Positions 4,500-22,503 of a stretch of DNA of 22,638 nucleotides are shown in pieces. Positions within the stretch are counted from its first letter, which is position 1; each line of letters starts with the position of its first letter. The DNA is from a virus, in IMG/VR virus record IMGVR_UViG_3300011114_000722, positions 1 to 22,638 of that record. One strand, given 5' to 3'. The position numbers were made by a program, and so were the translations under genes. The notes below the pieces were generated by a model. The model searched no databases, had not been told where the DNA came from, and was given only the letters and a program-made list of their open reading frames with translations.

Positions 4500-5582
4500 A
4501 TGGTAATACAGCCACCACACAGCTTATTTTCGCAGCTTTTCCGAACGGTGAAGCTCGGCGCAATAGACGCAGCGAAGCGGACAATTCGCGGTGTTTCTTT
4601 AATCAGCGCAGGAGCAGCGAAGGGGCACACCGACGAGGACGGAAAGCAAGTGATGGTGGACGGCACCACGCTGCGGCAGGTTTTCGACAAATGCGTCGAG
4701 GCCGGCACATTGAAAGTAAAGCTCGACCACGGCAGCGGAGTTTCTTGCACGGTGGGCTGGCTCGAGCGCTTTGCGCTAACGGCCACGCAGGTACTGGGCG
4801 ACCTGCACATTTATGATTCCGAAGAATCAGCGCCGCGCATTTTCGAGATTGCTGAAAAGAATCCTACGCACATTGGTATCAGCCTCGAGTTTTCCGGCGA
4901 GGATGAAGCAGGCGACAGCGTATCGCTTGCTCGCTGCGACGAGGTAATTACGGCGGCGCTCGTGAGCGACCCAGCCGCAAACGTTTCGCTTTATTCAGAA
5001 AAAACAAAACTACAAAACACCATGCCTCGAAATAAAAAGCTGGAAACAGCACCCGAAGAAAAGCCAACGCCTGCAATCGCACTGGAGGACGCCGGCGCTG
5101 AAAAAGAACCTACGCTCGGCGAGCTTGCCGCTATGTTTAAAACGCACCTTGCCGACTTTGCGGCGTTCAAATCAGCCTACGCCGTCGACTCCGTGCTTGC
5201 GCCGGATACTGAGAACACGCAAGGCGCAGAAGGAACAGCGCCAAAGGCAACCGACCCCGAAACGATGCCGGTCGCAAAAGGCGAGAACGACACAAAAGTA
5301 ACCACAGCAGCAGCGGAGCCGGACGGCGACGGAGCCAAGCTGGCAAAGGCTGCGGAAATGGGCGCAGCAGTAGCGGTGCGCGCCTTCGCTTCCAAGTTCG
5401 GCATCAACCTGTCGCCGGCAGGAGCGCCGGCAAATACTGCGGCGAAGCCGGAGAAAACATTCGCGCAACTGCACGCAGAGGAAACCAAGAAATTTGACGG
5501 CGACGCTGACTTGGCAATGCTTCATTGCATCAAGAATTACAAAAAGGAGTACGCAGCCAGCCGGCTCGTAGCTCCACGCTAA
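4500..5582 (+). CDS. Prohead serine protease fused to scaffold domain (lambda gpC-like role)
   Basis: A 360-residue two-part protein. The N-terminal part (about 1-168) looks like a phage maturation serine protease: a His in VKLDHGSG (His77), a Ser in THIGISLEFSG (Ser128), and the terminal strand VITAALVSDPAANVSLYS (149-166), which matches the usual protease pattern ending in a DPAAN-like element. After about residue 170 the sequence becomes low-complexity, Ala/Glu/Lys/Pro-rich and helical, as in scaffold domains. The gene lies between portal and decoration/capsid genes, as lambda C does. An in-frame ATG at residue 175 with its own leader may produce the scaffold alone (separate entry). The leader contains A-rich sequence and no Shine-Dalgarno. 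The catalytic assignment is inferred from spacing and context. Confidence 0.85.
   Translation: MVIQPPHSLFSQLFRTVKLGAIDAAKRTIRGVSLISAGAAKGHTDEDGKQVMVDGTTLRQVFDKCVEAGTLKVKLDHGSGVSCTVGWLERFALTATQVLGDLHIYDSEESAPRIFEIAEKNPTHIGISLEFSGEDEAGDSVSLARCDEVITAALVSDPAANVSLYSEKTKLQNTMPRNKKLETAPEEKPTPAIALEDAGAEKEPTLGELAAMFKTHLADFAAFKSAYAVDSVLAPDTENTQGAEGTAPKATDPETMPVAKGENDTKVTTAAAEPDGDGAKLAKAAEMGAAVAVRAFASKFGINLSPAGAPANTAAKPEKTFAQLHAEETKKFDGDADLAMLHCIKNYKKEYAASRLVAPR
5022..5582 (+). CDS. Internal in-frame start: scaffold protein (Nu3-like), putative
   Basis: The ATG at 5022 is in frame with the protease gene (residue 175) and would give a 186-residue scaffold. The bases before it (AAAACTACAAAACACC) closely resemble the A/C-rich leaders before stand-alone genes at 10554 and 19503, which also end in ACACC or ACAACACC just before ATG. 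The protein composition changes at the same point, from a folded protease to a charged, Ala-rich helical sequence. In lambda, scaffold Nu3 is made from a start inside gene C in the same frame, so the arrangement has precedent. The product is predicted, not proven; residues 169-174 could simply be linker. Confidence 0.6.
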   Translation: MPRNKKLETAPEEKPTPAIALEDAGAEKEPTLGELAAMFKTHLADFAAFKSAYAVDSVLAPDTENTQGAEGTAPKATDPETMPVAKGENDTKVTTAAAEPDGDGAKLAKAAEMGAAVAVRAFASKFGINLSPAGAPANTAAKPEKTFAQLHAEETKKFDGDADLAMLHCIKNYKKEYAASRLVAPR

Positions 5583-5624
5583 TTTGACGGATAAAACCAA
5601 CAACAACTAACACCAAATAATTAC

Positions 5625-5993
5625 ATGAGCACACAAAACGAAACAGGGTTTAAGACCTTTCTCGCATCGGGCGCAATCAGCGCTTTTCGAGCGGTAGCAG
5701 TCCAGTCGGACGGCACCATCACGCCGGTTGCTGGCAACGCAGCAGTCGGAATCGGGGTTACGCAAGCAGACATTGCCGATGCAACCTACGGCGCTGTTCG
5801 CCTTTGGACTTCTGCCGGAACCATGATGATTGCAGTCAGCGGCTCAGCCGTAACGCCTGCAACCACCTACGGCATCATCACAGGCGGCTACGCCGGCGCA
5901 GTCAACGGCACCTTCGCTCCTGCTTCGCTTATCGGCTTGTATGCCGGAGTGGCCAGCAACGGCATCGTCTTGGAGTTCGCGCACAGCAACTAA
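5625..5993 (+). CDS. Head decoration/cement protein (gpD-like role)
   Basis: A 122-residue, Ala/Gly/Thr/Val-rich all-beta protein directly before the major capsid gene, where lambda gpD (110 residues) lies. The segment AVQSDGTITPVAGNAAVGIGVTQAD has the form common in small capsid-stabilising proteins, including those annotated DUF2190-like: a strand carrying a value that would otherwise be modified, then a GIGVTQAD-type turn. It probably sits on the outside of the expanded capsid at the three-fold axes. The leader (ACAACAACTAACACC...) is A/C-rich without Shine-Dalgarno. A short fibre-type beta protein is the alternative, but position favours decoration. Confidence 0.75.
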   Translation: MSTQNETGFKTFLASGAISAFRAVAVQSDGTITPVAGNAAVGIGVTQADIADATYGAVRLWTSAGTMMIAVSGSAVTPATTYGIITGGYAGAVNGTFAPASLIGLYAGVASNGIVLEFAHSN

Positions 5994-6041
5994 ACGATTG
6001 AAATAATACACAGAAAATAATCATTAAACTAACACAAAAAT

Positions 6042-7010
6042 ATGCCTTACACAAACGCACAAGCCACACCGCGCAGCGATATTTACGCGCTCGTGATGCA
6101 GGCGAACACCGACTTCAATAAACTTTTTATTGGAGACCTCGTATTGCCTCCTAAGCCGGAGCCGATCCGCCTAGGTATTTACATGAAAGCAAAGCTGGCA
6201 AACGCTGAGCTGCTGAACGCTGACGCTCAGCCACGCGCTCAGGGAGCCACCTACGCACGCGCAAATCGCAAATACGATACAGACACTTTCGACTGTCTCG
6301 AATACGGCGAAGAAGCAGTAATTGACGACAGCTACGAAAGCGAAGTGGAGCGCTTTATGAACTTGGAAGCCACCGAAGCCATGCTGCTCGAGCGCAGCCT
6401 GCGCATCAGCTACGAAGCTCGAGTCGCTGCGGCAATCATGAACGCGTCCACGTTCACCGCGACTGCCGCCACGGCAGCCTACACAGCGGCGAATGTCGCA
6501 ACGATTGACGTTGTGAATGATGTCGACCTCGCAAAGACCCGCCTGCTCAAAAACGGCATCATTGCAAACGCCGCAGTCATGTCGCAGGACTTGTTCAATC
6601 GCATCAGGCGCACGACGCTCCTGCAAAATCAAATCTACGGCGTGGTGCCTCGCAGCGCCGGACAGCGTATGCTGCCAGCCGAAGAAGATGTTGCACGCGC
6701 TCTTGGCGTGGATAACCTCTACGTCGGCAAAGCGCCGAAGAACGGCAACCAAAAAGGGCAGGCTTACTCCGGCTCCTTTGTTTGGGGCACGGCCTATATC
6801 TGGGTCGGCAATGTCGCCGGCGGCGAGTATCAGGCAGGCGGCGTAGGTCGCACGATTCAATGGGACAAAGACACCACGGGATTGTTCACGCCGGAAACCT
6901 ACCGCAGCGATGAGCGCCGCGCAAACATCCTGCGCGTTCGCCAGAATGTGGCCGAGAAAATCATTGACGAGACGGCCGGCGAGCTTATCACCACAAGCTA
7001 CACAGCCTAA
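6042..7010 (+). CDS. Major capsid protein
   Basis: A 322-residue protein at the lambda E position, followed by a strong terminator, as befits a highly expressed gene. Typical capsid features are visible: an early extended arm, LVLPPKPEPIRLGIY, the EEAVIDDSYESEVERFMNLEATEAMLLERSLRISYEARVA long spine-helix region (residues about 87-130), a central MSQDLFNRIRRTTLLQN stretch, and a late SGSFVWGTAYIWVGNVAGG beta segment. No N-terminal delta domain is present, which agrees with a separate scaffold gene. The leader is A-rich with repeated ACA and no Shine-Dalgarno. Confidence 0.9.
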   Translation: MPYTNAQATPRSDIYALVMQANTDFNKLFIGDLVLPPKPEPIRLGIYMKAKLANAELLNADAQPRAQGATYARANRKYDTDTFDCLEYGEEAVIDDSYESEVERFMNLEATEAMLLERSLRISYEARVAAAIMNASTFTATAATAAYTAANVATIDVVNDVDLAKTRLLKNGIIANAAVMSQDLFNRIRRTTLLQNQIYGVVPRSAGQRMLPAEEDVARALGVDNLYVGKAPKNGNQKGQAYSGSFVWGTAYIWVGNVAGGEYQAGGVGRTIQWDKDTTGLFTPETYRSDERRANILRVRQNVAEKIIDETAGELITTSYTA

Positions 7011-7021
7011 GCTGGCACGCT

Positions 7022-7058
7022 AAAGGGCGCAGGCGATTAAAACACGCCTGCGCCTTTT
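7022..7058 (+). terminator. Rho-independent-like terminator after major capsid gene
   Basis: A perfect 10-bp GC-rich stem (7026-7035 with 7045-7054, GGCGCAGGCG/CGCCTGCGCC) around a 9-base loop, extended outward by a G-T and three A-T pairs (7022-7025 with 7055-7058) ending in TTTT. It lies 12 bases past the capsid stop and would reduce or end transcription before the glycosyltransferase gene. The flanking A and T runs also allow function in the reverse direction. Confidence 0.85.
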
Positions 7059-7084: not shown

Positions 7085-8872
7085 ATGGACAATAAAACCA
7101 AACCACTGATAACTCTCGCGACAATCGTCGGGCAGGAGGAAGCAGTTATCTCCCGCTACATTCACGCCTTCTCTGACGCCGTTGACCACATGGTTTTCGT
7201 GCAGGCAGTCGGAGGCGCAGCGCCTGACTTATCTATGGCGCTGGCGAAGATGACGTGCGAGGACTTTAAGATTCCGGCCACTTTCCTAGAGTATAAAAAT
7301 CAGGCAGGCGAATACGAGCACGTAGACAATTTCGCTGCTGCAAGGCAGGTGGCGTGGGACGCTGCCGCAGCCACCGGCGCTGACTATCTCATGTGGGCAG
7401 ATTGTGACGATACGCTGGCAGCCGGCAGCGCCGAGGCAATCAGCGCAGCGGCTACGGAGGCTAAGTATGACGTTTACGTAATTCCATACAAAGTGGGAGG
7501 CTTCGTTAATGTGGCACAAGAAGTGATGCGCGAGCGGCTGGTGCGCAATACCGGAAAATCCCGCTGGCGCTACTCCGTGCACGAGCAGCTTCGCTTTGAC
7601 GAAGCGGTCAGCTACAGCATCTTGCGCGATGCAATGGTGCTGCACGAGCCGCACGCAACAAAAGCCGGAGGGCATCACCGGAACGTGAACATTTTGCACG
7701 CAGCCACCGAGGATGCAGCGCGCAATTTCTTCTACTTGCATCAGGAGTATTTCCGAACGAATCAGCACGAGAAGTCAAAAGCCTTCGGCGAGGCAGCGTT
7801 TGCCGCCGGCGGTCTGGATACGCTCGAGGCTTACGAAATCCTGCTCAATTTGGCGCAAATGGAAACCGGCGCGAAGGCGAAGGAATACGCCGCTCGAGCA
7901 TTTGAGACGATGCCGGAAAGACGCGAGGCGCTGGCGTTGCTGGCAAACTATGCAATCATTGACAAAAACCACGAGAAAGCGCTTCTGCTTGCGAGGATGA
8001 TGATGGGACTGGGCAAGCCAAAGCGCAGTTACTGGTCACTAAACTGCGACTGGTATGGCTGGAAAGGCTCTGAGCTGTATATGCAAGCGCTCCGGCTCAA
8101 TGGGCAAAGCACAGAGGAATTCGAGCAAAGATACCGCGAAGGCGCAAAGCCTGTCTTTTCGATTATCCACGCCACCCTAGGCAGACCAGAGAAGGCGCTA
8201 GGCATCAGAGAAATGTGGTTGAGCCGTGCCCACTATCCTGAGCGCGTGGAATACATCTACGGGCTGCACGAAGGCGATGTGAAGTCCGGCGCAGTTCTTG
8301 CCGGATTTCAGCACACCGTATCGCCGGAGGGCTGCGGCTGCCCAACGAATTACGACGCTGCCGCCGGCGCAGCGCGAGGCAAGGTGCTTGTGCAGGCGCA
8401 GGACGATTGCTACCCTCCGGCAGGCTGGGACGATATGCTGCTAGAGGCAATCGGCGACCTTGACGCTCCTTGCTTTGTCGCCGTATCCGACGGGACGCGA
8501 AAGGACAAGCTGTGCGTCAATTCAATCATGACGACGGTTTACGCTAAGCAGAAAGCGGCGAAGGAAGGCAGCGGCAGCGGATTCTTTCCTCGAGCCTATG
8601 ACGGGACATTTGCCGATACCGAAAACACTTACAGAGCTTATCTGGACGCAGAGGCAGGGGCGGTGAAGCTGGCAGAGGCTAAGCACATCGTGATTTACCA
8701 CGACCACCCGCACTACAATCCTGCAATCCCTTGGGACTCCACTTACGAGGCTGAGAACTCCACGGAATCAACGCGCAGGAACTGCGCAATTTTCCACGCC
8801 AGAAATCCGCAGGCGGCAAGCGACAAAGTCTTGCAATTCGACGGCGAGCCGGCAAAGGTGGAGGCGTCATGA
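7085..8872 (+). CDS. Two-domain glycosyltransferase (GT2-TPR-GT-A type)
   Basis: A 595-residue protein. Residues 1-200 look like a family 2 glycosyltransferase of the GT2-plus-TPR kind: ITLATIVGQEEAVISRYI at the start, DNFAAARQVAWDAA, then the acidic metal/sugar-nucleotide motif WADCDD (104-109). Residues about 205-345 are helical with TPR-like repeats (EAYEILLNLAQMETGAKAKEYAARAFE and ALALLANYAIIDKNHEKALLLA). Residues about 355-560 begin again as a GT-A fold (PVFSIIHATLGRPEKAL) with a second acidic motif QAQDDCYPP (437-445). No signal peptide. It lies between capsid and connector genes, behind a terminator, and overlaps the next gene by ATGA. It may glycosylate virion proteins or a host surface polymer; the substrate is unknown. 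Confidence 0.82.
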   Translation: MDNKTKPLITLATIVGQEEAVISRYIHAFSDAVDHMVFVQAVGGAAPDLSMALAKMTCEDFKIPATFLEYKNQAGEYEHVDNFAAARQVAWDAAAATGADYLMWADCDDTLAAGSAEAISAAATEAKYDVYVIPYKVGGFVNVAQEVMRERLVRNTGKSRWRYSVHEQLRFDEAVSYSILRDAMVLHEPHATKAGGHHRNVNILHAATEDAARNFFYLHQEYFRTNQHEKSKAFGEAAFAAGGLDTLEAYEILLNLAQMETGAKAKEYAARAFETMPERREALALLANYAIIDKNHEKALLLARMMMGLGKPKRSYWSLNCDWYGWKGSELYMQALRLNGQSTEEFEQRYREGAKPVFSIIHATLGRPEKALGIREMWLSRAHYPERVEYIYGLHEGDVKSGAVLAGFQHTVSPEGCGCPTNYDAAAGAARGKVLVQAQDDCYPPAGWDDMLLEAIGDLDAPCFVAVSDGTRKDKLCVNSIMTTVYAKQKAAKEGSGSGFFPRAYDGTFADTENTYRAYLDAEAGAVKLAEAKHIVIYHDHPHYNPAIPWDSTYEAENSTESTRRNCAIFHARNPQAASDKVLQFDGEPAKVEAS

Positions 8873-9201
8873 GTATGCAAACAATCCTTGCCGCTGACTT
8901 GCTCGCTCTGCGCGGAACGGAAATGACGGCGTCTGCAGTAATTGGCGTAACGACATACACAGTTTTTCTGGATGATTTGCAAAGCGTGGATGCTGATGCC
9001 TTCGGCGGAATGGAGATTGAGAACATGAGAAAAGTGCATTTCCTGACTGCAGACTTGGCAAGCATAGTGAACGGAACCACGATGACATTGCTGGAGCCGA
9101 CAGCCACGCCTAACGCGCCAATCCAACGAAAGAAAATCGTGCTGTCCTCAGTAATTAGCGCCTGTGGCGCTGAGCTGATTGTAACCGTCCGTGGCGCTTA
9201 A
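8869..9201 (+). CDS. Head-tail connector/stopper protein, putative
   Basis: A 110-residue protein at the lambda FI/FII position. The start overlaps the glycosyltransferase stop (ATGA) and is preceded at four bases by GGAGG (8860-8864), an unusually good Shine-Dalgarno for this phage. The sequence alternates strands and short helices (VIGVTTYTVFLDDLQ, MRKVHFLTADLASIVNGTTMTLL, KKIVLSSVISACGAELIVTVRG), consistent with a small beta-barrel head-closure protein that seals the portal after packaging. There is no diagnostic motif; the call is positional. Confidence 0.55.
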   Translation: MSMQTILAADLLALRGTEMTASAVIGVTTYTVFLDDLQSVDADAFGGMEIENMRKVHFLTADLASIVNGTTMTLLEPTATPNAPIQRKKIVLSSVISACGAELIVTVRGA

Positions 9202-9207
9202 ATTCCT

Positions 9208-9648
9208 ATGACTTCAAACGTTGTTACCCACGCCGCAGAAAACGCGCTTGCCGGCCTGCTGACTACCGCATTCGTGGGCACAGTAGCCGAAGCGAAAGTG
9301 TTCGTTTCTGACTCGAATACTGCAAAAGTTCCGCAGCCTTACGTGGTTGTGTATTCATCGGCAGCGGAGGAAGAAATTGCGCCAGCCTGCGGTATCTACA
9401 AAATCGAGCTGAGCGTTCAGTTTTACTCTCATGTAGTGGAAACATCGGCAGCCGAGCGCGACGCAATATGCACGGCGATTAACAATGTAGCCTACAGCGC
9501 CTGCGCCGCTGCGCTCAGCGCTGCCGCCGACTTCCATTGCTACGGGTTCGTTCCAAATGCCGGCAACATGACGATTGACGCCGATCAGAAAAGCTACATT
9601 TACACCGTACTGTTTACGGCGCATTGCATGGCTCGCGACAATGCCTAA
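9208..9648 (+). CDS. Tail completion/terminator protein, putative (gpU/gpZ role)
   Basis: A 146-residue protein between the head-closure candidate and the tail tube. The pattern AAENALAGLLTTAF, then YVVVYSSAAEEEIAPACGIYKIELSVQFYSHV, and helix AERDAICTAINNVAYSACAAAL, then final strand KSYIYTVLFTAHC is the alpha/beta layout common to tail terminator proteins such as gpU: an N-terminal helix, a beta sheet with one long helix packed against it, and a final edge strand. It would cap the tail tube and join it to the head. Only six bases separate it from the previous gene. Assignment is from order and secondary-structure pattern. Confidence 0.6.
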   Translation: MTSNVVTHAAENALAGLLTTAFVGTVAEAKVFVSDSNTAKVPQPYVVVYSSAAEEEIAPACGIYKIELSVQFYSHVVETSAAERDAICTAINNVAYSACAAALSAAADFHCYGFVPNAGNMTIDADQKSYIYTVLFTAHCMARDNA

Positions 9649-9740
9649 ACAGCAGGCTTGCAAAGTGCGCATACAAGCGTATAAGTATCTCGCAGATTGA
9701 CGTATTACACCATCAACAAACCACTCAAAAATTTAATTTT

Positions 9741-12901: not shown

Positions 12902-13648
12902 ATGCCAATCATACAAGTCGGAAACATTGGTGCGAATTATCAGCCGGACGGCGACAACGTAAAGCAAGGCGCAGACGGCAGCGGCGATGCAACGCTAGTT
13001 TACAAGGTATCAGCGGTAGGCTTCACGCTTGCCAACATTCCTGCACCGCTGAGCGTTCACCCTGTGTATTCTCAGCTTCGGCTCTACGAGGCGTCGGTGG
13101 CTCGAGAGGCAGGGTCGTGGATGACAGTTACGGCCACTTACCGAGGGGTGTTGCTGGCGAACCCTGCGATTTATATGCAGGAGCAGTTTACGATTTCGAC
13201 GACGGAAGCGCCCGTAGAAACGCATCCTTTGTTTTCTCTGCCTAGGGCTGCTCCCCGAGTAACTTCCACGGAGCTTTCGCAAATAAGGAAGGCGCTGGAA
13301 AGCAATGTGGAGTATAACGTAAATACATTTCCCGCTGTGACGGCGTTCGGAATAGTTTTGTGGCAAAAGCTGCGGCGAGGGATTGAAAGCTACCTGCGCA
13401 TCGGCGGCGTTTATCGGCAGACCTACATACAAGTTGATATTCCGCAGAACTACTCGGGTATGGGGCGCATTGCCGCCGTTGCAGGAGCGCCCGCTACGCC
13501 GGCTGGGACGAACTTTCTGTGGACTGCTTTCAATTGGCGCAAGCAAGGCGGCGTCGTTACGGTAGAAAAAGAGTATACGCTTAGCGGGCTGGAAGGGTGG
13601 GAGCCGGAGCTTTACGACAGCACTTATCTCGCAGCATTTGGATTGTAA
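12902..13648 (+). CDS. Tail-tip protein, unknown family
   Basis: A 248-residue protein directly after the tape measure, where distal-tail and baseplate genes lie. It is mostly beta: VKQGADGSGDATLVYKVSAV, YSQLRLYEASVAREAGSWMTVTATYRGVL, and TVEKEYTLSGLEGWEPELY at the end. No collagen, fibronectin or hydrolase motif was seen. The start has no Shine-Dalgarno (the stop of the tape measure is two bases before). A distal tail protein or adaptor role is plausible from position, not shown by sequence. Confidence 0.65.
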   Translation: MPIIQVGNIGANYQPDGDNVKQGADGSGDATLVYKVSAVGFTLANIPAPLSVHPVYSQLRLYEASVAREAGSWMTVTATYRGVLLANPAIYMQEQFTISTTEAPVETHPLFSLPRAAPRVTSTELSQIRKALESNVEYNVNTFPAVTAFGIVLWQKLRRGIESYLRIGGVYRQTYIQVDIPQNYSGMGRIAAVAGAPATPAGTNFLWTAFNWRKQGGVVTVEKEYTLSGLEGWEPELYDSTYLAAFGL

Positions 13649-13668
13649 AAAAATAAACACACTAAAAT

Positions 13669-14043
13669 ATGGCAAACGAAGCACAAGCAAACGCATCGCT
13701 GAATTTCAGCAAATCCGGCGCTGTTCTGGCAGGCGCAGCCGGCACAGCGACGACAGTCGCTGGCACCAAGTGCGCGAACGTCACGCAGCTTATCCCTACG
13801 GCATCAACTGTGGTGGCCTTCGGCGCAATCACCGCTGTCGGCTGGTTCATCATTCAAAACCTCGACAATACAAATTACGTAGACATTGGCTTTGACAATT
13901 CTACGTGGCCGATTCGATTAAAGGCAGACGCGAACGCAGGCAATGCCGGCGGATTCATCATGGCGCAAGGCAACTCGCCTACGGTATATGCTCGAGCAAA
14001 TTCTGCGTCCTGCTCAATTCTTGCGCGTGGCCTTGACTTGTAA
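13669..14043 (+). CDS. Small beta-rich structural protein
   Basis: A 124-residue protein in the tail-tip cluster with an A-rich leader (AAATAAACACACTAAAAT). The sequence is nearly all strands and small residues (AQANASLNFSKSGAVLAGAAGTATTVAG, GWFIIQNLDNTNYVDIGFDN, SPTVYARANSASCSILARG). The NLDNTNYVDIG element occurs in small beta-sandwich virion proteins in many phages; their exact role is usually not known. It could decorate the tail or form part of the fibre base. Followed after five bases by the fibre-like gene. Confidence 0.65.
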   Translation: MANEAQANASLNFSKSGAVLAGAAGTATTVAGTKCANVTQLIPTASTVVAFGAITAVGWFIIQNLDNTNYVDIGFDNSTWPIRLKADANAGNAGGFIMAQGNSPTVYARANSASCSILARGLDL

Positions 14044-14048
14044 TTTCA

Positions 14049-15182
14049 ATGAGCGATTACGGATTACCGGATTTTGAAGCAGGCTCGCCGCTGGCGATAC
14101 AGCTGTCGGCTTCGGTAATGAATGCGCTGCGCGACCGCATCAGTCGGAACACTCCGCTGGCAGGCAATGGCATCAGGACGCGCCAAACGGAAGCGGGCAC
14201 AATCATTGAAATCAACAGGCAGCCGCTTACGCTGGGCGCTTACGACAATCCATACCTGCTCGGCTCGCGTGGATATGGCAGCAGCACCGCCGGCGCAGCT
14301 ACTGTTATTGGCAGCAGCCTAAACTGGGGCAGCGCCACGGCTGATGCTTATACGGCGTGGGGAGGCAGCGCAGACACCACAGCGGCAGTTACTGTGCCGT
14401 ATTATGACCAGTGGCATCGCGACCGACCGCCGCTCGATTCATCGGACGACATTACGATGGGCGGCAAGGTGTCAGTCATGACGAGGATTCTGCACAATAG
14501 CGGAGATAATTACTACGTGCCGGAAATGCGCGCTTGCACCTTCGATTCCCGAGGGGCGCTAGTGCTCGTGGACGTCGAGTCGCCGGCTTCGGGCGCTTCG
14601 AACTATTCGACGCGCATCAGGGCAGAGATGCACCCGTGGCAATGCTACATAACAGCGCTCGCAACGAATAGCTGCTCGGTAAAAATCAACCCGAACTCCA
14701 CGCTGATGCAGACGTGGGATTATCGCGCTGCTTGGTATCTGGCAACGTGGAGGGATGCATGGGCACACGCGAATATAACGAACTTTGCGAGCACTTTCGT
14801 TTTGACAGCAGCCACACATTGTGTCTGGATGGAGGTTGAGTTCACAGGAGGTGATATAACTTCTGTTTATATAAAAAATGGAGTCCCAGGAGCAGTGACT
14901 TGGAATGCCGATCTTCGTTATGTTTCTTCTGACAATCATGTAGTTGGCTCTGGCGATTTTATTTGGTATCAACTGCTTGCCTACTTTAAGCCGAGTGCCA
15001 GTGGTGATGGAGGGGCTGAAGTTGATGCTGTTTTCGGTGGCGTAAATTACAAGCTGATGTGCCCAACGACCACTCATTTGATGCAGGGTTATATCCGTGC
15101 AGCAGAGAGTAACGATCCGACCTCTGTTGATGATTATTACGCCATCACCCCTTGGTATGGCTGCTGGTTCCCGACCTCATAA
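14049..15182 (+). CDS. Tail fibre/receptor-binding protein, probable
   Basis: A 377-residue protein. Residues about 8-60 (EAGSPLAIQLSASVMNALRD and the GIRTRQTEAGTIIEI strand) look like a conserved attachment domain; residues 60-377 are Gly/Ser/Thr/Trp-rich beta sequence typical of fibre tips. From about 14800 the DNA changes: it becomes more T-rich, loses the GCCGGC/CTCGAG words common upstream, and a GATC appears at 14910, one of very few in the window. This suggests the C-terminal half was exchanged by recombination while the N-terminal anchor stayed. It would bind the host surface. No enzyme motif was seen. Confidence 0.68.
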   Translation: MSDYGLPDFEAGSPLAIQLSASVMNALRDRISRNTPLAGNGIRTRQTEAGTIIEINRQPLTLGAYDNPYLLGSRGYGSSTAGAATVIGSSLNWGSATADAYTAWGGSADTTAAVTVPYYDQWHRDRPPLDSSDDITMGGKVSVMTRILHNSGDNYYVPEMRACTFDSRGALVLVDVESPASGASNYSTRIRAEMHPWQCYITALATNSCSVKINPNSTLMQTWDYRAAWYLATWRDAWAHANITNFASTFVLTAATHCVWMEVEFTGGDITSVYIKNGVPGAVTWNADLRYVSSDNHVVGSGDFIWYQLLAYFKPSASGDGGAEVDAVFGGVNYKLMCPTTTHLMQGYIRAAESNDPTSVDDYYAITPWYGCWFPTS

Positions 15183-17126: not shown

Positions 17127-17326
17127 GGCCGAAGTATTCTGCTTCATTTATCCTGCTCGCGCTTTTTGCTGTTCTAGCCGCGCTTTACCTTACGGGCTGC
17201 TCCGCTATCCCGTATCGCGTATCTCTCCACTACGGGGTTGCTACGGCTTCTTATGACGGGAAGCGGGTGCTGTTGGATGTTAATGGGGATGCAATCGGAG
17301 AATCATTAAAAGGATATGCCAAGTGA
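17123..17326 (+). CDS. Small lipoprotein, o-spanin-like (Rz1-type role)
   Basis: A 67-residue protein whose N-terminus is a lipoprotein signal: basic MRPKYS, hydrophobic LLALFAVLAALY, then lipobox LTGC with Cys about residue 26. The mature part is only about 41 residues, so a small outer-membrane lipoprotein is expected. Small lipoproteins next to holin and endolysin are usually outer-membrane spanins; here it lacks the Pro-rich stretch of Rz1, so this is position-based. ATG 17123 overlaps the holin stop and has no good Shine-Dalgarno. It implies a diderm host. Confidence 0.65.
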   Translation: MRPKYSASFILLALFAVLAALYLTGCSAIPYRVSLHYGVATASYDGKRVLLDVNGDAIGESLKGYAK

Positions 17327-17864
17327 TGAAATACGCTTGGCTATCTTGTCGCCGGAACAAGCCCGTGACGCGCTTGCGCTGCTGGCTGAGCGGGAGGTAG
17401 GGGTGCGCGAGGAAGGCGGCAATAACTGCGGCGCTCGAATACGGGAGTATCAGAAAGCCACGTGGCTTGCGCCCGATGCGTGGCCGTGGTGCGCAGCCTT
17501 CGTGGATTGGTGCGTGCTGCAATGGCTCAAAAGTCCGAGCGTATGCGAGCTGCTGAAAGTAGCCGAGCCGGAGCAATGGCGACCAAAGACGGCCGGCGCG
17601 TGGGATTTGGCGAGCTGGGCGAAAAAGCACAGCCTGCGCGTGGCCGGCTCGAGCAGCGAAGCAAGGCGAGGCGACATTTGCATTTTCGATTTCAACGGTC
17701 ACGGCCACGTCGGGATTGTGGCAGCGGACAGCGAGCGAGGAGATGTCAGCACGATAGACGGCAATACGAACGGCAGAGGCGAGCGCGACAGCGCTACCGG
17801 CGACGGCGTATGGCTAAAGCATCGCAGCCGAGATTTAGTGCGCTGCTTTGTTCGGCTTTGCTGA
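17316..17864 (+). CDS. Endolysin with CHAP-type cysteine amidase/peptidase domain
   Basis: A 182-residue protein showing the CHAP/NlpC-P60-like signature: catalytic Cys in WPWCAAFVDWC (Cys59), catalytic His in NGHGHVGIV (His131), then STIDGNTNG (Asp148/Asn150) as the third polar residue. No signal peptide, so it needs the holin to reach peptidoglycan. The CWCAAFV form is common in phage lysins for diderm hosts. It overlaps the lipoprotein by 11 bases (AAAAGGAT just upstream gives a weak SD), and its last 30 bases overlap a leftward gene. GCCGGC and CTCGAG words return here (17592, 17648), so the block boundary lies within or before this gene. Confidence 0.88.
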   Translation: MPSDEIRLAILSPEQARDALALLAEREVGVREEGGNNCGARIREYQKATWLAPDAWPWCAAFVDWCVLQWLKSPSVCELLKVAEPEQWRPKTAGAWDLASWAKKHSLRVAGSSSEARRGDICIFDFNGHGHVGIVAADSERGDVSTIDGNTNGRGERDSATGDGVWLKHRSRDLVRCFVRLC

Positions 17865-20180: not shown

Positions 20181-20966
20181 ATGATTATCAAAAACATGGC
20201 AGACCAGCTTTACCGAAACGTTGCTGGCCTCAGTCAATCGGCGCTTAAAAACCTGTCAAAGTCGCCGGCGCATTTTTTGTATGCACAAGAAAACCCACCG
20301 GCTGCATCGCCGGCAATGTTCCTCGGTCGCCTATTCCACCACCTTGTTCTGACGCCGCAGGATCCGCAGTGGTGGGCTGTGAAGCCGGACGGCATGAGCT
20401 TCGCCACCAAGGAAGGAAAAGCGTGGCGCGAGGCTGCCAGCGGCATCATCGTAACGGCTGAGCAATGGGACGCAGCGAAGGGAATGGCGAGCGCGGTTCT
20501 GGCGCACCCGAATCTGCCAGCCTTCACCGACACAGAGCTGAGCATTGTGGACACTCGGCTGGCTCCGGCAGAATCGCTGCTAAAGGGAAGGCTGGACGCC
20601 GTAGCCGGCGACATTTATGACCTCAAATCCTGCGAGGATGCACGGCCGGAAGCGTTCGCACGAACTATCCACGCGTATTCCTACCACGTGCAGGCTGCTC
20701 TGTATCTCGATTTATACAACGCAAACGTAGCCGCTGCCAACGCCGCTCGAGGCTTTTACTTTGTGGCTGTGGAATCAGCAGCGCCGCACGGGTGCCGGAT
20801 GTATCGGCTGAGCGACGACGCGGTTGAGCAAGGGCGCGCTGAATACCGGCGACTCCTGCGGCTGCACGATGAATGCGTCCGGCAAGATTTGTGGCCGGCT
20901 TACACCGACGAATGCGTCGAGCTGTCTTTGCCTATTTGGGCGCGCAGCAGCAAGGAGGCAGAGTGA
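20181..20966 (+). CDS. Exodeoxyribonuclease VIII/RecE-like PD-(D/E)XK nuclease
   Basis: A 261-residue protein with the signature of the phage RecE-type nuclease family: LSQSALKNLSKSPAHFLY (18-35), AMFLGRLFHHLVL (45-57) and then KGRLDAVAG, IYDLKS (Asp139; Asp147 and Lys149 as the catalytic D...DxK) and YHVQAALYLDLY (168-179; Gln171 and Tyr175 as in RecB-like nucleases). It would resect double-stranded ends for recombination or replication with the 204-residue protein upstream. I start it at 20181, just after the leader CTAAAGCAAACACA; an in-frame ATG at 20196 is the alternative. The stop overlaps the next gene's GTG. Confidence 0.85.
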   Translation: MIIKNMADQLYRNVAGLSQSALKNLSKSPAHFLYAQENPPAASPAMFLGRLFHHLVLTPQDPQWWAVKPDGMSFATKEGKAWREAASGIIVTAEQWDAAKGMASAVLAHPNLPAFTDTELSIVDTRLAPAESLLKGRLDAVAGDIYDLKSCEDARPEAFARTIHAYSYHVQAALYLDLYNANVAAANAARGFYFVAVESAAPHGCRMYRLSDDAVEQGRAEYRRLLRLHDECVRQDLWPAYTDECVELSLPIWARSSKEAE

Positions 20967-21573: not shown

Positions 21574-22503
21574 ATGCAAATCTCGAACATCATCCAACTC
21601 GCGGAAATCATCTACCTGATACAGGAGGAATCACCGTGGAGTGTCGCAACGCAAACGTGGCCGGAACACTGGTCGCAACCCACGCGCTCGCTCCAGTGGT
21701 ATATCGACGCCAACTGGCTCATCCGAATCGGCGAGTTGATTTACGACCCGCGACAAGCGCCTAACGAAAAGCTCAGCCGGTTGGAATCCTTCGAGGCCGA
21801 AGGCGTGACTGTCCACCACTGCGATTGCATGGAACTCATGCGCGCAACGCCAGACGGCGCGTTCGATCTCGCCATTGTTGACCCGCCCTACGGCATCGGG
21901 ATCAACATGAACCAAGGACGCAGGAAGGGCGACGTGATAAAGCACGCCCGCAAGACATGGGACGCAAGCTCTCCGGCAGCGGAATACTGGAACGAACTGC
22001 GGCGCGTGTCCCGCGAGCAAATCGTGTGGGGCGCAAACAACTTCGGATGGATACCGCCGCATAACGGGTGGGTCGTGTGGGACAAAGACATCACTGGAGA
22101 CGTTGGCTTCTCGCGGGCGGAACTCGCCTACAATAGCACCATCAGCGTCGTGGACATGGTTCGCATCCGGGCGCAAAGCGGCGCGGAGACATACACGAAC
22201 AAAATCCACCCGACGCAAAAGCCCGTCGCCCTCTACGCATGGCTGCTCACGAACTACGCCAAGCCGGGGCAGCGCGTGCTCGACACGCACTTCGGGAGCG
22301 GGAGCATCGCAATCGCGGCGCGAAACTTCGGATGTGAGCTTGTCGCCTGCGAGATTGATGCCGACTACTTCGCCGCGTCGGTCGCCCGAATCACGAGAGA
22401 CTTTTCGCAGCAGATGCTTTTTTCGGCGGGTGGGGCGGAGCCGGTGGGCGAACAACTCGACGCGTTTGAGCACAGCGGCGCTCAGCGGAACGAAAACAAA
22501 TGA
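21574..22503 (+). CDS. DNA adenine-type methyltransferase (beta-like motif order)
   Basis: A 309-residue SAM-dependent methyltransferase. Catalytic motif IV is DPPY (103-106, in FDLAIVDPPYGIGI), followed by HPTQKP (212-217) and the SAM-binding motif I-like DTHFGSGS (237-244), then ACEIDADY. Order IV before I indicates the beta class, and DPPY suggests N6-adenine. Residues 1-70 (IIQLAEIIYLIQEESPWSV, PTRSLQWYIDANWLI) seem an extra N-terminal part. The gene lacks CTCGAG and GCCGGC words and has two GATC (21865, 21900), unlike most of the window, suggesting recent acquisition. Might protect phage DNA from host restriction. ATGA overlap with the following gene. Confidence 0.88.
   Translation: MQISNIIQLAEIIYLIQEESPWSVATQTWPEHWSQPTRSLQWYIDANWLIRIGELIYDPRQAPNEKLSRLESFEAEGVTVHHCDCMELMRATPDGAFDLAIVDPPYGIGINMNQGRRKGDVIKHARKTWDASSPAAEYWNELRRVSREQIVWGANNFGWIPPHNGWVVWDKDITGDVGFSRAELAYNSTISVVDMVRIRAQSGAETYTNKIHPTQKPVALYAWLLTNYAKPGQRVLDTHFGSGSIAIAARNFGCELVACEIDADYFAASVARITRDFSQQMLFSAGGAEPVGEQLDAFEHSGAQRNENK

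Follow-up and report, generated by a model that had tools for sequence, protein, structure and literature searches.

Glycosylation of phage virions has been documented in few cases, and in the open literature found these are confined to mycobacteriophages (PMC11256854, PMC11600133, PMC12619734). In Che8, the cluster O phages and their relatives, virion glycosylation is encoded by separate genes located near the 3' end of the genome or in a glycosyltransferase/methyltransferase cluster (PMC11256854, PMC11600133), and the glycosyltransferases of Maravista lie near the 3' end of its genome (PMC11256854). GmaR of Listeria is both a flagellin O-GlcNAc transferase and an antirepressor; its N-terminal GT-A domain is followed by TPR repeats, and its substrate, flagellin, is an abundant self-assembling protein (PMC9638930).

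The present analysis concerns a viral stretch of 22,638 nucleotides (the window; IMG/VR record IMGVR_UViG_3300011114_000722), which encodes a two-headed glycosyltransferase (GT) beside the major capsid protein gene. Similar to GmaR, the window GT begins with a GT-A domain and continues into TPR-type repeats, and its target is predicted to be a protein. GmaR carries an antirepressor domain at its end; the window GT has a second GT-A domain there, and its gene is carried by a phage next to a capsid gene. The peptide S-glycosyltransferases SunS (from prophage SPbeta) and ThuS likewise combine a GT-A domain with a helical part but have a single head; their substrate is a bacteriocin peptide, and we know of no link between them and a capsid gene. 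The chondroitin polymerase K4CP has two GT-A domains in one chain, and its alignment to the window GT spans both, yet this enzyme builds a polysaccharide, shares about 10% identity with the window GT and, to our knowledge, has no TPR middle. The mycobacteriophage systems are similar in that the glycosyltransferases are phage-encoded and the target is the virion there and is proposed to be the virion here. They consist of separate glycosyltransferase genes, whereas the window has one fused two-headed enzyme at the capsid gene. The sequence-only reading had suggested that the locus may be comparable to, but different from, the mycobacteriophage systems, and the difference holds, as the Maravista enzymes are encoded near the 3' end and the window GT beside the capsid gene. 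The component parts (GT2-type GT-A domains, TPR repeats and phage virion glycosylation) are already known (PMC11256854, PMC11600133, PMC12619734), and no description of a fused two-headed GT paired with a capsid gene was found in the open-access literature. Consequently, if the substrate is a virion protein, what is new is the fused two-headed form fixed at the capsid gene.

Locus layout and domain architecture

The features of the window around the GT gene are as follows.

5625..5993, + strand: small protein at the decoration/cement position (role inferred from position), candidate substrate
6042..7010, + strand: major capsid protein gene (phrog_1005, E=2.8e-24; synteny), the constant upstream partner
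7025..7055, + strand: terminator-like hairpin with T-run between the capsid and GT genes, -22 kcal/mol
7085..8872, + strand: two-headed GT gene, 595 aa, ATG start, by profile and fold matches
7109..7645, + strand: head 1, GmaR/SunS-like GT-A domain, residues about 9-187, by AF2 model and profile matches
7394..7411, + strand: WADCDD motif of head 1, residues 104-109
7673..8134, + strand: TPR-type helical middle, residues about 197-350, by AF2 helices and profile matches to consensus TPR proteins
8150..8848, + strand: head 2, GT-A domain, residues about 356-588, by VIA-align matches
8393..8407, + strand: QAQDD motif of head 2, residues 437-441
8869..8872, + strand: ATGA overlap of the GT stop and the next start
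8869..9201, + strand: 110-aa gene coupled to the GT gene, head-tail connector by position only

The 595-residue open reading frame and its two acidic motifs, one in each head and both with a predicted role in metal binding, are present as the sequence-only reading described them. That reading also had the GT gene coupled to a connector gene by ATGA; the overlap is real and recurs in 21 of 30 distinct relatives, but the label of connector reflects position only, and family searches with the product of 8869-9201 gave no match. The right part of the window encodes a CHAP endolysin (17316-17864), an exonuclease-VIII-like protein (DUF3799; 20181-20966) and a DNA methyltransferase (21574-22503).

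The fold of the GT has been probed using a combination of profile searches and structure prediction. The GT protein alone matches Pfam Glycos_transf_2 at E=1.3e-4 and 22.4 bits, under the cut-off of 23.3, and 49 of 50 family members match this profile at E<=0.01. The single protein also matches phrog_13126 ('beta-1,4-glycosyltransferase') at E=8e-15 over residues 82-338; this match covers head 1 and the TPR part only, and the function name is an annotation. GmaR is matched by the single protein at E=0.003 only and by the family profile at E=6.4e-17 (profile positions 2-202), while SunS matches the first half at E=2.3e-13 and consensus TPR proteins are also matched by the family profile. An AF2 model from the single sequence (pLDDT 35) was set aside, and the model used was built from the 50-member family alignment (mean pLDDT 94.1, pTM 0.83). 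In this model, a GT-A domain (about 9-187) is followed by paired helices (197-350), a second GT-A domain (about 356-536) and a helical tail.

The top Foldseek matches of the model are SunS and ThuS (E=5.7e-13), followed by the two-domain chondroitin polymerase. Alignment to SunS and ThuS with VIA-align gives Z of 17.6-18.8 over residues 1-296 and an rmsd of about 14 A over the whole range, which presumably reflects a different placement of the domains. Head 2 aligns with WrtF (Z 17.9, 3.1 A, 201 residues) and ppGalNAc-T2 (Z 16.9, 3.2 A, 213 residues), and more generally with many GT-A enzymes, TarS and TarP among them, at Z of about 16-18. The best matches in a viral structure library are GT2 proteins from giant viruses and uncultured phages. 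The proposal of the sequence-only reading that two GT-A halves surround a TPR-like middle is thus backed for both halves by the AF2 model, the profile matches, Foldseek and VIA-align 2, and comparison of the predicted structure with GT-A folds did find the second one. These results support a protein modelled as a TPR-type helical middle flanked by two GT-A domains, with a GT-A fold in head 1 as well as in head 2, in which the order of GT-A domain and TPR-type repeats is that of the GmaR/SunS-type protein glycosyltransferases.

Conservation of the two heads

The first search for GT relatives returned 5 viral contigs. An alignment of those 5 raised the number to at least 411 and a deeper alignment to at least 563, from which the best 80 per search were taken; the sequences fetched include 203 full or nearly full GT sequences, which form 55 clusters at 85% identity. 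Nine positions in head 1 (W104, D106, D108, D109, R149, R151, H166, E167 and H187) never vary among the 203 sequences. As the search patterns derived partly from head 1, which could make this invariance an artefact, it was rechecked in loci selected by their capsid gene, and the head-1 motif is intact in 59 of the 59 such loci that cover it. Head 1 is intact in every member that covers it, and its loss was never seen. In the head-2 motif, D440 is kept in 193 of the 203 sequences and D441 in 157, and head 2 has been lost at least 4 times, as judged by well-supported branches in a tree built from head 1 together with the TPR part. Where both heads remain, both are under purifying selection, with dN/dS of 0.03-0.16 in head 1, the TPR part and head 2 (six close pairs, simple counting method).

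In the members examined among L209 and L215-L240, the degenerate head 2 is followed by a separate ORF of about 212-227 aa. One of three such standalone ORFs tested (L235) resembles Glycos_transf_2 at E=5e-4, below the cut-off; since the match was obtained for one of the three, replacement of head 2 is a suggestion.

Additional domains were observed in other members. A second ORF right after the GT gene again matches the GT profile in L142 (6757-7920), L151 (6727-7896) and L154 (4890-6065), and those of L142 and L151 carry a Methyltransf_24-like C-terminal domain. The GT of L152 (6138-8483) is longer by about 230 residues and weakly like phage glycosyltransferases (phrog_16010, E=0.003); the extra C-terminal part is possibly a third head.

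Association with the capsid gene

A search for the gene beside capsid genes in related phages found the pairing from both directions. Among the 157 GT-selected loci with informative upstream sequence, many of which are related to each other and not independent, a capsid gene lies upstream on the same strand in 151 (median gap 65 nt; at most 150 nt in 137 and at most 1.7 kb in 14). Capsid identity to the window drops to about 33% across these loci, and in distant relatives other genes occupy the 3' side of the GT gene, the capsid gene remaining its neighbour on the other side. The 80 capsid-selected loci comprise 65 with the GT gene, 9 without it despite at least 1.5 kb of following sequence and 6 that are too short, so that 65 of the 74 informative loci carry it, one of them in inverted form (L121). 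The placement of the GT within the head-to-tail gene order, as proposed by the sequence-only reading, can consequently be put in a stronger form, namely a fixed capsid-gene partner across a wide family with few natural GT-less sites. The close ones are L103 and L132, in which a relative of the window's next gene directly follows the capsid gene.

In six GT loci (L208, L210-L214) the upstream capsid gene is missing, and the GT adjoins a portal gene on the other strand. The L121 locus was considered as a GT-less case and rejected because the GT is present there on the opposite strand; both the GT and the next gene (5266-6584) run opposite to the capsid gene close to the contig end, which may reflect a rearrangement or an assembly error. 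In L004 an ORF between the capsid and GT genes (5261-6067) begins, by eye, like a GIY-YIG endonuclease and is perhaps a homing gene. In L039 a fucosyltransferase-like gene (8719-9681; GT10, E=1.7e-9) occupies the same interval, and in L045 the GT gene is followed by dehydrogenase-E1-like and zinc alcohol-dehydrogenase-like genes (12974-14610), perhaps with a part in the metabolism of sugars or cofactors.

Among 144 distinct capsid 3' regions, 127 contain a terminator-like hairpin downstream of the capsid gene, compared with 3 of 432 shuffles that preserve base composition only. As the same hairpin is also found behind the capsid genes of relatives without the GT, it is a feature of the capsid gene. 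The hairpin at 7025-7055 is therefore real, but it does not isolate the GT gene in particular, as had been thought. This hairpin would lower GT expression.

Candidate substrates and alternative roles

The window GT is judged to be, with somewhat better than even confidence, a bifunctional protein glycosyltransferase, encoded by the phage and acting on a virion head protein. For head 1 and the TPR part, the nearest relatives with a solved structure are enzymes that act on proteins or peptides, which suggests the protein part of this reading. The virion-head part is suggested by the capsid gene, which stays upstream while the 3' genes change in distant relatives. The reading is also favored by the unequal fates of the heads together with the low dN/dS, by the glycan-type neighbours in distant relatives (GT10-like, methyltransferase plus head-2-like ORF, and E1/ADH-type) and by the change in the decoration-position protein where the GT is missing. 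In the proposed mechanism, the GmaR/SunS-like head 1 would put the first sugar on a side chain while the TPR middle holds the acceptor protein, and head 2 would add the following sugar to give a short sugar chain on the virus head; we infer both this order of the heads and the nature of the sugars. Synthesis of the GT would be late and at a lower level than that of the capsid protein, as expected from a gene beside the capsid gene and below its terminator, and this would suit an enzyme with an abundant substrate.

Both the capsid and the decoration-position protein are candidate substrates. Head proteins are favored by gene position, and a protein acceptor is favored by what the relatives of head 1 act on and by the presence of the TPR part. 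No capsid position was found at which Ser/Thr clearly tracks GT presence, which counts against the head-protein reading. Position 136 was considered, being Ser/Thr in 91% of close relatives with the GT and Gly in both close relatives without it, and was rejected because other GT-carrying members also have Gly or Ala. L103 and L132 are as similar to the window as GT-carrying relatives are (portal 59%, capsid 71-72% and tube 53-55% identity), and their decoration-position proteins are barely or not alignable by BLAST to that of the window and form a long branch (1.89) in the tree of that protein. The gene normally found after the GT has also diverged in these two loci. In the capsid tree both fall with L100, which has a one-headed GT lying 2.9 kb away. 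These results are hints, from sequence comparison and from one or two events only, that the decoration-position protein may be the partner or substrate of the GT.

The fixed capsid neighbourhood could have other origins. Synteny can be passed down with the head module, the related loci are not independent, and the six loci without a capsid gene upstream also count against the head-protein reading. Alternatively, the GT may act late in infection on outer glycans or flagellin of the host surface and thereby block re-adsorption of progeny or competing phages, with its place in the head operon setting the timing only. Host-surface modification is generally known to be common among phage glycosyltransferases, and in the model TarS/TarP and WrtF, which are teichoic acid or glycan enzymes, match the fold of head 2 equally well. 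The substrate of GmaR is flagellin (PMC9638930), one of the surface targets considered here. This role is nevertheless unlikely, given a capsid pairing that is fixed down to about 33% capsid identity and loci in which, among those inspected, no GtrA/GtrB-like membrane partner was noticed beside the GT. Less likely again is a substrate among the downstream-encoded tail or connector proteins in place of a head protein: the ATGA coupling to the next gene points that way, as do the glycans found on both capsid and tail tube in mycobacteriophages (PMC12619734), but it is the 3' neighbours that are swapped in distant relatives and the capsid neighbour that is kept.

Two further roles are very improbable. 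A switch of the GT to a role in head structure or assembly, with catalysis no longer important, would explain its constant place between the capsid and connector-position genes; it is difficult to reconcile with head-1 motif residues that are invariant in the 203 sequences and with L103 and L132, which keep the rest of the head module without the GT. A DNA glycosyltransferase that decorates hypermodified bases is about as doubtful. A passage in PMC12619734, citing Pyle 2024, describes such a role for some phage glycosyltransferases, but the nearest folds of the window GT act on proteins or glycans, and a search of 16 related records, which may be fragments, found no thymidylate-synthase-type hydroxymethylase (PF00303) with working controls. 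The Tet_JBP search in the same test carries no weight because its control gave no signal.

Glycosylation of a virion head protein, if correct, would establish this modification as common throughout a phage lineage, with the enzyme beside the capsid gene in hundreds of environmental contigs. It would also provide a ready test system, with a constant head 1, a variable head 2, natural relatives without the GT and few candidate substrates. More tentatively, the family may represent a widespread lineage, probably infecting Verrucomicrobiota among others, with built-in head glycosylation, in which a fused two-step GT is inherited with the capsid or decoration protein; the starter head would stay constant, whereas the extender head would vary through loss, replacement or the addition of tandem or third heads, and the sugar coat of the virion could change with it. 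The host of the window virus is probably in Verrucomicrobiota. Distant GT relatives occur in contigs binned to this phylum (L243, L244, L245, L247), other bins being Armatimonadota and Burkholderiaceae, and the window terminase resembles that of Verrucomicrobia phage P8625. The isolated Verrucomicrobiota phages P8625 and Moulinsart, whose head genes are similarly ordered, have no annotated GT at that place.

As neither the GT nor the capsid protein had a tblastn match among 50,697 named phages, named relatives are distant only, and the GT matches in named phages are both distant and partial. Standalone glycosyltransferases of Streptomyces phages, such as gp35/gp36 of Teutsch (L159:9411-10678), match head 2 of L045 at about 27% identity and lie away from the annotated portal gene. 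In the podovirus contig ctKR88, a GT that matches distant members of the family is encoded two genes after the capsid gene.
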